Assembly (NCBI RefSeq): GCF_019711565.1
Contig: NZ_JAIGNN010000002.1
Location: forward strand, 496,001 to 560,000
DNA: 64,000 bases
DNA from: Qipengyuania proteolytica
GTDB lineage: Bacteria; Pseudomonadota; Alphaproteobacteria; Sphingomonadales; Sphingomonadaceae
Direction: 5' to 3'
In this document: in pieces, positions 13,963 through 39,301 of the stretch
Layout of the letters: each line of letters opens with the position of its first letter
Position numbering within the stretch: position 1 is the first letter of the stretch
Made by a program: the position numbers and the translations under genes
Notes under the pieces: generated by a model
Told to the model about the DNA's origin: nothing
Database searches by the model: none
Seen by the model: only the letters and a program-made list of their open reading frames with translations

Positions 13963-15312
13963 TCAGACCATGTGCAGAGCGTCGCTGGCGCCGAGAATGT
14001 CCGTAGGCATCAACGTGCCGGCGAAGATCATATCCCCGCCGCCGAACGCTTTCGAGCCACCCGGTCCACCGTCCGCGGCAGCTACAAAAGTGTCGGCAGT
14101 GAAGTCGCTCTGGGTCAGGTTCAAGATGCCGTCGAGCCAAATGAACGCATCGGCCGAGCCATCGCCATCGGTATCCATCTCGACGATCGTCCGGGATGTC
14201 CCCTGAGAATAGCGCAGTTCGCCGGCGGCACCGCTGAATGCTGCCTGTCCGATGAAAGTGAAGTGCTGCGTCCCCGCGGTCGAACTGTCTGCGTCGATGC
14301 CGGACAGGTCGATCAGGTCGCCTTCCGCCTGATCGAAGTCGGCGATGATATCGCTGCTGCCTTGCGTCAGCCCGGCGTCGTCAGTGCTGGCATAGGCGAA
14401 CGTATCCGCGCCGAGCGCGCCGACCAGCTTGTCGAGCCCCCCGCCACCGTAAATGATGTCGTCGTCCTTGCCGCCGACGATGAAGTCTGCGCCGCCATCG
14501 CCGTAGAGCACGTCGGTTCCGCGTCCGCCGTAAACCTGGTCGGCACCGGACCCGGCGTAGAGCGTGTCGTCGACATTGCGTCCCACCAGGACGTTTGCGA
14601 CGTCATTGCCGTAGATCGTGTTGTCGTCAGGATTGCCGGTTCCGTCGATCCGGCCACCGGAAAGATGGAGAACCTCGACATTGGTGGGCATTTCATACGA
14701 GATCGACGCATAAACCGTGTCGGTGCCCGCCCCGGCTAGTTCGGTGACGACGTCCCCGGCATTGTCGACATAGTAGGTGTCGTTGCCACCTCCGCCGAAC
14801 ATGGAGTCTGCTCCAGCACCGCCATCGAGGATATCGTTGCCACCACCGCCACGCAGCAAATCGGCGCCGTTTCCGCCTTCGAGCACGTCGTCTCCGCCAA
14901 GGCCTTCGATCGTGTCGTTCCCTTCGAGCCCCTGCAGACGGTCTGCGAAAGCACTGCCATTGATCGTGTCAGCGCCAGCCAGCAGAGCGGCGAACAGGCC
15001 AGCGGTATCATCGGTGCCGACGAAGTTGGTGAATTGTTCGACGCTCATGGACAGACCTTGGAAGGTGAAGGCTGCGCCGCCGGTGATGCTGTAATCGAGA
15101 CCTGTGATCGTGCCGGTGGTCGGCACCCCGTCGACGAAATTCGCGAAGCTGCCGTCGATGATCAGGCGTTCGGTGATGCCGTCGAAAACATCGGTAAAGG
15201 TCACGCGGCTCGAATTGCCGGAAGGGGTCGCGAAATCGAAAAATTCCGCGATGTTCGCATTCGCGATAAAAGATCCTGCGTCGAACGCGCGAACAGCCGT
15301 AAAAATCGCCAT
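13963..15312 (-). CDS. Hemolysin-type (RTX) calcium-binding repeat protein
   Basis: A 449-residue acidic protein without an N-terminal signal peptide, as expected for type I secretion. An N-terminal beta-rich domain (to about residue 110) is followed by two blocks of glycine/aspartate nonapeptides such as GLEGNDTIE, GGNGADLLR, GGGGNDILD and GDGGADFIV, separated by a segment like TDTVYASISYEMPTNVEVLHLSG. The C-terminal region DIIADFDQAEGDLIDLSGID and MDTDGDGSADAFIWLDG is the usual peptidase-M10 serralysin-C/secretion domain, and the end is hydrophobic. No protease or lipase domain is seen. Start ATG 15312 (MAIFTAVRAFD) is preferred over a longer reading. No secretion genes are adjacent. Its C-terminus resembles the fragment at 25.8 kb. 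Confidence 0.88.
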   Translation of the reverse strand: MAIFTAVRAFDAGSFIANANIAEFFDFATPSGNSSRVTFTDVFDGITERLIIDGSFANFVDGVPTTGTITGLDYSITGGAAFTFQGLSMSVEQFTNFVGTDDTAGLFAALLAGADTINGSAFADRLQGLEGNDTIEGLGGDDVLEGGNGADLLRGGGGNDILDGGAGADSMFGGGGNDTYYVDNAGDVVTELAGAGTDTVYASISYEMPTNVEVLHLSGGRIDGTGNPDDNTIYGNDVANVLVGRNVDDTLYAGSGADQVYGGRGTDVLYGDGGADFIVGGKDDDIIYGGGGLDKLVGALGADTFAYASTDDAGLTQGSSDIIADFDQAEGDLIDLSGIDADSSTAGTQHFTFIGQAAFSGAAGELRYSQGTSRTIVEMDTDGDGSADAFIWLDGILNLTQSDFTADTFVAAADGGPGGSKAFGGGDMIFAGTLMPTDILGASDALHMV

Positions 15313-15543
15313 TTTACATCTTCCCCCCAAAACTCTTCAATCGCGAGCCTATCGCCGCCGGTCGGCGATCGTGCGCTTGCCATTGCTTAGTCCGGCAAAT
15401 TGGAAGGTCAACTGCACGGGCCGCCCTGTCCCTACCCCTGACAATCAGTGTCAGCGCCCACTTTCCCGCAGTCTAGCGCTTCTTGTTTGCCTACAGCGTC
15501 ACGCTCCTGCTAGCGGCGCGGCCAAGCAAGCGAAGGTGCATCC

Positions 15544-16758
<1,215 letters not shown>

Positions 16759-16919
16759 TTGCGCTGCAGCACGTTTATGCGTTGCGATATTGCGCTTGCG
16801 AGACCGTCCGTGGCATAAATTTGCGATGAAGCGTTGACTTATCCACCTCCCTCCACAGCGAAAAGCGGGGAAAGTGGAAAAGTCGGGGCTTGCCAGCTTG
16901 CAGAATCGCCCGGCGAGGC

Positions 16920-17460
16920 GCAGCTTCAAGTCCTCGGAAGGACGCGGAAACGCACTGAACTGGACGGTCGAAAGACTTGAAAGAACAGGGAATTTCCAAG
17001 ACCGGATGACGTGACGGAACCTGTCCGCGCGGATCACGAGACCCTCGTGCAGAAGACTTCGGTCGGACGCAAGGCGGGTCGATGACGGAACCGCGAAGTC
17101 GTTCCAGAACGAGCTTGGCCAACCCGGCCGGATGCCGAAGGAGGCGTCGAAGGAAGGTCTTCGGACCGGAAAGCGATGCAACCGCTTGAGGCGGAAGGCC
17201 ATAAACGGAAAGCCAAGCTGCGGAGCCGCCTGGTGAAGGCTGGCCTGCAACGGAAGCGAGGGCCTTCGGGCCTGGCGCACCCAAGCGGGTCGACTGGAGG
17301 GTGGAGCCGGATGCCGGTGCGAGCGCCGGTGACAGAACCGGAAGGAATGTCTTCGGACAAACCGGAAGGGAAAACATCGGATGCCAAGTTCCTATCTTCG
17401 GATACGACCACGCATCGGTGAGAGTGGGGTCGGCAGCAATGCCGGCCCCATTTGCTTTGT
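16920..17460 (+). ncRNA. Putative large structured non-coding RNA downstream of argG
   Basis: About 540 bases without a believable gene but with dense perfect hairpins. Five have the very stable cUUCGg loop: GAC/GTC at 17055-17064, GGTC/GACC at 17156-17167, GGCC/GGCC at 17261-17272, TGTC/GACA at 17348-17359 and TATC/GATA at 17393-17404. Two have GAAA loops (16944-16953 and 16967-16976). Others are CACGAG/CTCGTG (17035-17049), TCGTT/AACGA (17099-17112) and CCGGTG/CGCCGG (17314-17329). An 8-bp helix TTCAAGTC/GACTTGAA (16925-16932 with 16974-16981) could enclose the first ones. The region ends in a terminator with a GCAA loop. UUCG and GNRA loops are canonical only in plus-strand RNA. RNase P, tmRNA, SRP and group II domain V signatures are absent. 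Boundaries are approximate; the 5' end could lie nearer 16860. Identity is inference. Confidence 0.55.
17426..17460 (+). terminator. Intrinsic terminator of the putative RNA
   Basis: A 10-bp stem GGGGTCGGCA/TGCCGGCCCC (one G-U pair in RNA) closed by a GCAA tetraloop (17436-17439), followed by ATTTGCTTTGT. The polarity fits plus-strand transcription of the hairpin-rich region. The remaining gap to rlpA (17461-17708) shows no gene. Confidence 0.75.
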
Positions 17461-17708: not shown

Positions 17709-18221
17709 ATGGCCAATCGCGCGTTTCGCAGCTTGCTTTTCACCGCCCTCGTGGCGCTTCCCGCCACGGCGGGCCACACCGAGGAGCGCACCGCTTCCGC
17801 GCTCGAAGTCGCGTCCTTCGACCGCAGCTTCGTAGCTTACGAGAGCCTGCCGCCGCAGCCCGAGCCGGCTGCCCACGTCGTCGACCTCGACACCATCGAA
17901 CCGCCGGTCGAGGCGCAGCCCGCCACCACCGCGATCGAGGGCGGCAACGCGTCCTATTACGGTCGCAAGTTCCACGGCCGCCGCACCGCGAGCGGCGAGG
18001 CGTTCGACATGCACGCCATGACCGCCGCCCATCGCACCCTGCCCTTCGGAACGCTCGTGCAGGTGACAAACCCGCGCAACGGCAAGACAGTGACCGTGCG
18101 CATCAACGATCGCGGACCCTTCCACGGCAACCGCGTTATCGACGTGAGCCGCGCCGCGGCGACCGAGCTCGGCCTGATCGGCCCGGGCAAGGCCCATGTG
18201 GAGCTGGCCGTCGTCGGTTAA
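17709..18221 (+). CDS. rlpA: Septal ring lytic transglycosylase RlpA family protein
   Basis: A 170-residue exported protein: signal peptide MANRAFRSLLFTALVALPATAG, a proline-rich linker (to about residue 75) and the double-psi beta-barrel of RlpA. Diagnostic blocks are NASYYGRKFHGRRTASGEAFD, AAHRTLPFGTLVQVTN and VRINDRGPFHGNRVIDVS, including the catalytic Asp in INDRGPF. It lacks a C-terminal SPOR domain and a lipobox cysteine, so it is a short, freely periplasmic version that cuts denuded glycan strands. Preceded by GGGAGG eight bases before ATG. Its TAA is shared in TTAA with the converging neighbour. Confidence 0.93.
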   Translation: MANRAFRSLLFTALVALPATAGHTEERTASALEVASFDRSFVAYESLPPQPEPAAHVVDLDTIEPPVEAQPATTAIEGGNASYYGRKFHGRRTASGEAFDMHAMTAAHRTLPFGTLVQVTNPRNGKTVTVRINDRGPFHGNRVIDVSRAAATELGLIGPGKAHVELAVVG

Positions 18222-38939: not shown

Positions 38940-39118
38940 CCGCGGCCGAACGACACGCACAGGCAGGTCTCCTGGCTCCCGGATCGCCGGCCTCGCCCCG
39001 CCTTCCCGCCCTTGTCGGACAGTGGCATGATGGAACAGGCCTCCCCGGTCACAGTTGCGGGGGCAGCGGAGGGTTTGCACCTCCTTCCCTCTTCGGGCCT
39101 GCGCGAACAGGCCAACCC
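38940..39118 (-). ncRNA. Cobalamin riboswitch (adenosylcobalamin element)
   Basis: On the minus strand, upstream of btuB, the classic motifs occur in order: a hairpin GGCCTG...CAGGCC, GGTGCAAACCCTCC, GCTGCCCCCGCAACTGTGA, CATGCCACTG and the B12 box AGCCAGGAGACCTGCC (plus-strand 38962-38977). Spacing fits a full-length element of about 180 bases. It ends roughly 90 bases before the btuB GTG, consistent with control of translation start or of transcription. Confidence 0.95.
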
Positions 39119-39301
39119 ATGACGCGAGGTTTCCCCTACCGCGCGTTTTTGCAGCGCACAAGATGGGGTTTGCGTTAAGTATTGGCCTGTTAAGAGGCGC
39201 GGCGAGCAGCGTCCCTGCGCGGGACCGCGCGTCCCGGGCTCTCCCGCTCGGGTCGATCTTGCGATATATGGCGCGCGAAAGGACGGCACGGATTGGCCAG
39301 C

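Follow-up and report, generated by a model that had tools for sequence, protein, structure and literature searches.

A large structured RNA conserved beside argG in the Erythrobacteraceae, with a predicted promoter of its own

Comparison across genomes shows, downstream of argG in Qipengyuania proteolytica, a predicted structured RNA (Table 1) that is conserved at one fixed locus in the Erythrobacteraceae and cleanly absent in several relatives. Throughout, "the window" means the whole stretch of 64,000 nucleotides that was analysed. The original prediction, that the region may hold a large, structured and hitherto undescribed RNA of this bacterial group, gains support from the Rfam negatives, from conservation within the family and from compensatory changes in the homologues. 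The class appears to be new, because nothing in Rfam scores above threshold at this site and no published description of the RNA or its group was found in the open-licence full-text literature; the broad kind, a large structured bacterial RNA of unknown role, is already known. Large structured bacterial RNAs are few, and several have proved unusual. On balance, this one is probably a free-standing noncoding RNA gene of about 525 nt that has its own promoter, is timed by the cell cycle and acts in trans. The RNA itself is well supported by covariation, lies at a fixed spot and has a readable promoter, and, if our reading of that promoter is true, it would be a large RNA tied to the replication and methylation clock of the alphaproteobacteria.

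Table 1. Features of the argG-rlpA region, in window coordinates, and what each call is based on
Feature	Positions	Strand	Basis
argG	15544-16758	+	Upstream neighbour, outside the RNA gene; Pfam Arginosuc_synth and C-terminal domain
Upstream element, DnaA-box-like (TTATCCAC 16839-16846, TCCACA 16852-16857, inverted GTGGAAAA 16874-16881)	16839-16881		Inverted-pair pattern once in genome
Predicted core promoter (-35 TTGCAG 16898-16903, 17-nt spacer, -10 CAGCTT 16921-16926)	16898-16926	+	Near-invariant columns
GANTC (GAATC), putative CcrM site in promoter spacer	16903-16907		GANTC in 103/113 spacers
Structured RNA, predicted transcript of about 525 nt	16930-17456	+	Covariation, strand-specific fold, tetraloops, homologues
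Domain I, with GAAA hairpin 16966-16977	16934-17009	+	Covarying 16940/17003, 16941/17002, 16967/16976, 16968/16975; also 5'-part pair test
Domain II, with UUCG hairpin at 17057	17011-17110	+	Covarying 17012/17109, 17013/17108, 17015/17106, 17018/17103, 17033-17035/17088-17090, 17056/17063, 17057/17062; also 5'-part pair test
Domain III, holding UUCG hairpin 17159 outside the consensus fold	17112-17219	+	Covarying 17114/17217, 17135/17191, 17136/17190
Domain IV, with UUCG hairpin 17261-17272	17221-17309	+	Covarying 17227/17303, 17231/17299, 17262/17271, 17263/17270
Domain V, most conserved (helices 17312-17321/17411-17420 and 17323-17331/17375-17384; hairpin 17390-17407)	17312-17420	+	Covarying 17330/17376, 17390/17407, 17392/17405, 17394/17403, 17395/17402
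Terminator-like hairpin, 14 pairs, GCAA loop	17422-17453	+	At least 93% of 113 sequences keep each pair standard; two pairs near the loop covary
rlpA	17709-18221	+	Downstream neighbour, outside the RNA gene; TIGR00413 above cut-off

The evidence for an RNA is first of all structural. The consensus shows a predicted fold that is a row of five domains, each with its own closing helix, joined by linkers of one or two nucleotides and followed by a terminator-like hairpin. RNAalifold, run on 113 non-redundant homologues, gave 119 consensus pairs, of which 27 covary at E<0.05 in a self-written test that follows the R-scape idea and takes as its null the substitutions replayed on the tree; this count comes from testing the proposed structure alone, a structure derived from the same alignment, and a blind test over all column pairs, with no structure given, returned only 7 significant pairs. 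Thirteen of the 119 pairs fall in the promoter and were dropped, leaving 106 for a count on an alignment of 30 sequences (A2), where 94.2% of cells downstream of the promoter are paired and double changes occur in 43 of the 106 pairs, versus 27.5 (sd 2.4) after shuffling and 11-15 when the partners are slid. For the 5' part, taken from 59 matches of a second model (R2, described below), double changes were found in 48 of 49 pairs versus 35.6 shuffled and 23-31 slid, and 85% of cells are paired versus 28-43% slid, in an alignment fitted to the R2 structure and hence biased towards it. For the 5' and the middle part, wide MAFFT alignments came out poor (mean column identity 51% and 45%) and were excluded from the counts. 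Checked for covariation, then, the region carries compensatory changes in most helices, far above the controls.

The five CTTCGG hexamers that first drew attention to this region are there, at 17057, 17159, 17264, 17351 and 17396 within 16920-17460, and 2000 dinucleotide shuffles average 0.23 with none reaching five; the chance expectation quoted for them, 0.13, was slightly low, but the enrichment itself stands. The further assertion that all five are backed by at least three more base pairs is right for four of them (three or four pairs) but not for 17057, which has two beyond the closing C-G. Significantly covarying pairs are found in three of the five hairpins (17057, 17264 and 17396); the hairpin at 17351 has double changes in the 30-sequence alignment, yet, like that at 17159, it is absent from the 113-sequence consensus. 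Across the five hairpin tips a loop of cUNCGg type occurs in 52-70 of the 113 sequences and a GNRA-like loop in 5-28, by a coarse pattern. One of the two GAAA hairpins proposed, 16966-16977, is retained with two covarying pairs, but the other, at 16944-16953, can be read as GCGGAAACGC and lies outside the consensus fold. A long-range 8-bp helix, also foreseen, is recovered as 17314-17321 paired with 17411-17418. The GCAA-loop terminator exists as a hairpin (17422-17435/17440-17453), but its T tract is weak and a simple terminator scan is silent there. Polarity was called correctly: the plus-strand fold of 16850-17460 beats its shuffles (z -3.45) whereas the minus-strand fold is no better than them (z -0.13; 20 shuffles each), and CTTCGG averages 2.57 per RNA in the 113 homologues versus 0.42 for its reverse complement.

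The RNA is single-copy in its own genome, where the next best blastn match has an E of 0.48. In a set of 61 genomes, blastn found it in 33, namely its own and 32 of the 36 other members of the genus, and in none of the 24 from other families. A covariance model of the 3' part (R1, built on 17293-17453) was searched against 249 genomes from the family and 246 from the order, and matches of at least 42 bits were found in 79 and 60, respectively (own genome in both; counted by eye). At E<=0.01 the counts were 130/249 and 121/246, many of these matches being low-scoring and mostly the terminator hairpin, judging by the listed model positions, and only those of at least 42 bits were taken as real. 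In the order search, the listed matching genomes are all of the same family, as are the four of 385 class genomes, the own genome included, that match at E<=1e-8. An exact-pattern scan of named genomes gave at least 118 stretches. Among the matches listed are Erythrobacteraceae (Qipengyuania, Erythrobacter, Porphyrobacter, Altererythrobacter, Croceicoccus, Tsuneonella and others), along with bins labelled only loosely as Sphingomonadales or Alphaproteobacteria. The viral contigs held no exact pattern match and the plasmids and phages no blastn match, and a mobile origin was rejected on these collections.

Gene order tells the same story as the models. All 30 loci fetched from the blastn set have argG upstream and rlpA downstream. 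Sixty further R1 matches, a part of all, were fetched, and argG adjoins the RNA in 56 of the 57 that score at least 42 bits; the remaining locus (L105) stops at a contig end, with rlpA on the other side. The other three, weak matches of 37.9-39.3 bits (L144-L146), lack both argG and rlpA and were set aside as chance hits. Among 48 loci returned by the searches, several of them from genomes already in the blastn set, argG is in view in 47 and rlpA in 48; the sets of 30, 48 and 57 overlap in some genomes. Moreover, R2, a model of the 5' part built from 23 sequences of the genus only, finds the RNA of the window and 58 of 85 other RNA loci (83 of the 85 from other genera), each within the stretch that the alignment leads one to expect; it has no match in the other 27, which lie in distant members, and none in nine loci that lack an RNA match. 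R1, the independent R2 and synteny agree in placing the predicted RNA next to argG in many Erythrobacteraceae, as a rule with rlpA on its other side. Looking downstream of argG in relatives, as had been proposed, finds the RNA conserved within the family and no match in the genomes sampled from other families. As a side observation, a gene for an RTX calcium-binding repeat protein (13963-15330, minus strand) adjoins argG in the window.

Thirty genomes were chosen for lacking an R1 match, and argG was located in each. In nine of them (L147-L155) rlpA still follows argG without the RNA; within 1500 bases downstream of argG, R1 matches in these nine loci nowhere exceed 8.4 bits and TTATCCAC does not occur. 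One further weak R1 match among the 30 (L159, 23.7 bits) covers a terminator-like hairpin and skips most of the model. The argG tree comprised 116 sequences, namely the 30 loci of the blastn set, 56 further fetched loci and the 30 lacking a match. In it, the 86 holders and these nine non-holders form one group and the other 21 fall outside; support for this group is low (0.12), and that of its parent node is 1.0. Given a single gain, about seven losses are needed on this tree, several inside groups with support above 0.9. These comparisons show the predicted RNA to be present or absent as a unit with its own putative promoter. It would be a free-standing unit, because it is absent from the phage, plasmid and viral collections searched and because nine relatives keep the adjacency of argG and rlpA without it. 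Its absence from relatives shows that it is apparently dispensable. Since close relatives naturally lack it, both a deletion and a comparison with the natural losers can probe its role.

What precedes the RNA strongly suggests a sigma-70 type promoter of its own. Among the 113 sequences, the -35 columns are T in 113, T in 107 and G in 112, the C, the A and the last T of the -10 are each found in all 113, and the length of the promoter element is identical in 110; neither of the simple scans, for promoters and for terminators, picked up anything here. The predicted start should be near 16930-16935, because the conserved -10 box extends to 16926; the start first proposed, 16920, is about 10 nt too early, its first bases belonging to the predicted promoter. 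The element upstream of the promoter is conserved as well, with TTxTCCAC in 110, the second TCCAC in 105 and GTGGAWA in 108 of the 113 sequences. TTATCCAC and an inverted GTGGAWAA flank the second TCCACA, an arrangement unique in the genome. The usual DnaA box consensus is TTATNCACA; the boxes at the RNA do not have its final A, the ninth base being C in the window and, for the most part, C or T in the relatives compared. In the spacer, GANTC is directly behind the -35 in 94 of the 103 sequences that carry it and is missing from 10 of the 113 promoters, with about 0.03 expected per stretch against a background of all DNA in 898 kb from relatives. A GANTC site in the promoter and a genome encoding both GcrA and a CcrM-like methylase are, at the level of sequence, what a GcrA/CcrM-type promoter would have. 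According to published work, GANTC is generally over-represented between genes in alphaproteobacteria (PMC7987155), methylated GANTC is where GcrA binds in the promoters of cell-cycle genes, and mutation of GANTC cripples several, not all, such promoters (PMC3667746, PMC7987155). A promoter with DnaA-like and GANTC elements, like the clean losses described above, goes beyond what the original prediction had observed.

Elsewhere in the 3.1-Mb genome the same 8-mer keeps suggestive but mixed company. TTATCCAC has 14 matches, versus 51 for the pattern read backwards. One is 91 nt before ftsZ, with 2 GANTC within 150 nt; another, with 6 GANTC within 150 nt, lies 52 nt ahead of a gene of the PopZ family, which passes the DUF2497 cut-off but at 107 bits stays short of the 125 that NCBIfam PopZ requires; a third is at the start region of a gene for a CcrM-like methylase (domains N6_N4_Mtase and RAMA), inside the longest reading frame and before two later ATG codons, again with 6 GANTC within 150 nt. 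Ten of the 14 are not upstream of a nameable cell-cycle gene and have 0 or 1 GANTC nearby, and six of the 13 sites outside the RNA locus have none within 150 nt. Two of these ten belong to ligA, where the motif occurs as TTATCCACA at positions 1499 and 1814 of L307, 315 nt apart and within the reading frame. TTATCCACA together with several GANTC is common to the stretches before the popZ-like gene (L300 1380-1600), before ftsZ (L305 1380-1520) and at the start of the ccrM-like gene (L308 1450-1580). It is possible that this shared combination is a candidate cell-cycle regulon signature of the group. Near another TTATCCACA site there is a weak reverse-transcriptase domain (L309 1-659, minus strand; 27.9 bits, cut-off 29.6).

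From these elements we infer a promoter timed by replication and DNA methylation, at which DnaA would act through the inverted pair around TTATCCAC and GcrA/CcrM through the GANTC of the spacer, and through both the level of the RNA would rise at a set stage of the cell cycle. The RNA may then act in trans as a compact particle, perhaps with protein partners, and its task may lie in the cell cycle or the envelope, useful but not essential. A more ambitious version, an undescribed class of large five-domain RNA gated by DnaA and GcrA/CcrM that serves as an RNA-protein machine or a ribozyme in the alphaproteobacterial cell cycle, we entertain only tentatively. The chief rival keeps the same RNA and makes it a housekeeping or stress-linked one, the boxes binding another regulator and the GANTC being incidental. 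Conservation at the inverted boxes extends into flanks (GASTTATCCAC) beyond what a DnaA box requires, the RNA can be missing from relatives, as a dispensable one would be, and most genomic TTATCCAC sites have no link to the cell cycle. However, GANTC in so many spacers at the background given above, and the recurrence of 8-mer and GANTC at ftsZ, the popZ-like and the ccrM-like genes, argue against an incidental site, and we regard this rival as unlikely, if serious.

Considerably less probable is a cis-acting element, either the 3' untranslated region of argG or a leader of rlpA that controls the neighbouring gene. The fixed place beside argG, mostly before rlpA and on the same strand, is what such an element would have, but both a promoter and a terminator are predicted for the RNA itself, the nine loci keep argG next to rlpA although the RNA is missing, and the RNA persists where rlpA is reversed (L122) or where the 900 nt retrieved downstream give no rlpA match (L119, L121, L123 and L127). 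Even less credence goes to a locus that is first of all a DNA site, with three boxes binding DnaA for titration or reactivation and the RNA secondary. The uniqueness of the box arrangement speaks for it, as does the presence of 159 of the 163 TTATCCAC in 898 kb of relatives within the upstream region of the RNA, in a sample chosen around the RNA. Against it stand about 500 nt of RNA whose structure compensatory changes have maintained, with strand-specific tetraloops; nor does GC skew change clearly there across 304 kb, a weak test on which a replication origin or terminus was likewise rejected.

That the region lacks a credible gene, as first claimed, agrees with our finding no conserved reading frame. 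None of the three plus frames is free of stops in any of the 30 A2 sequences, and the minus frames average 1.6-2.8 stops per sequence, with zero in some. A small-protein gene starting at the ATG at 17311, behind an SD-like GGAGG, is the least plausible reading of all: all 30 sequences of the first set retain this start and 27 of them MPVRAPV, but the frames diverge and meet different stops after about 10 codons, 549 of 558 gaps (shared gaps counted per sequence) are not multiples of three, and the conserved codons sit in two helices.

As for RNAs already described, Rfam 15 at gathering threshold returned for the whole window only a cobalamin riboswitch (38945-39135, minus strand; 130 bits), away from the RNA locus. 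At the locus itself no family reaches threshold, in line with the original view that no described RNA fits; with E up to 5 the sole match was eL15, rejected as sub-threshold (23.4 versus 33.7 bits). The window contains no tRNA or tmRNA. RNAs of the CsrB/RsmZ type sequester proteins and have many GGA motifs. The abundance of GGA pointed out earlier is a likeness to them, but here the fold is multi-domain and covarying, and a CsrB-like sequestration was rejected on the absence of CsrA (PF02599) from the genome, a protein found in 3 of 14 control genomes. Like 6S RNA (RF00013), this is a candidate regulatory RNA gene; a replacement of 6S RNA was rejected, the sole genomic match of that family lying elsewhere (C1:1773250-1773419).

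A closer parallel in regulation is CcnA, the Caulobacter cell-cycle noncoding RNA, which has DnaA boxes at its gene, is 182 nt long, has a CtrA box and is reported to bind the ctrA and gcrA mRNAs, with the gene at the replication origin, as a figure legend implies (PMC8959179). The two are alike as noncoding RNA genes with DnaA boxes (here DnaA-like and predicted) and a site for a cell-cycle regulator, and they differ in size (182 versus about 525 nt), place (origin versus argG-rlpA) and site (CtrA box versus GANTC). The RNA described here gave a duplex z of -1.18 with the gcrA leader in a rough test; over the leaders of ftsZ, ccrM, gcrA, argG and rlpA, with 60 shuffles each, z was between -1.2 and 1.2, and simple antisense action on these five leaders is unsupported. 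OLE, GOLLD, ROOL and HEARO are large structured bacterial RNAs with many domains, patchy presence and roles that are unknown or scaffold-like. Unlike them, our RNA has no Rfam match at its locus and none in the phage, plasmid and viral collections searched, but it resembles these four in size, in its many domains and in its patchy presence.
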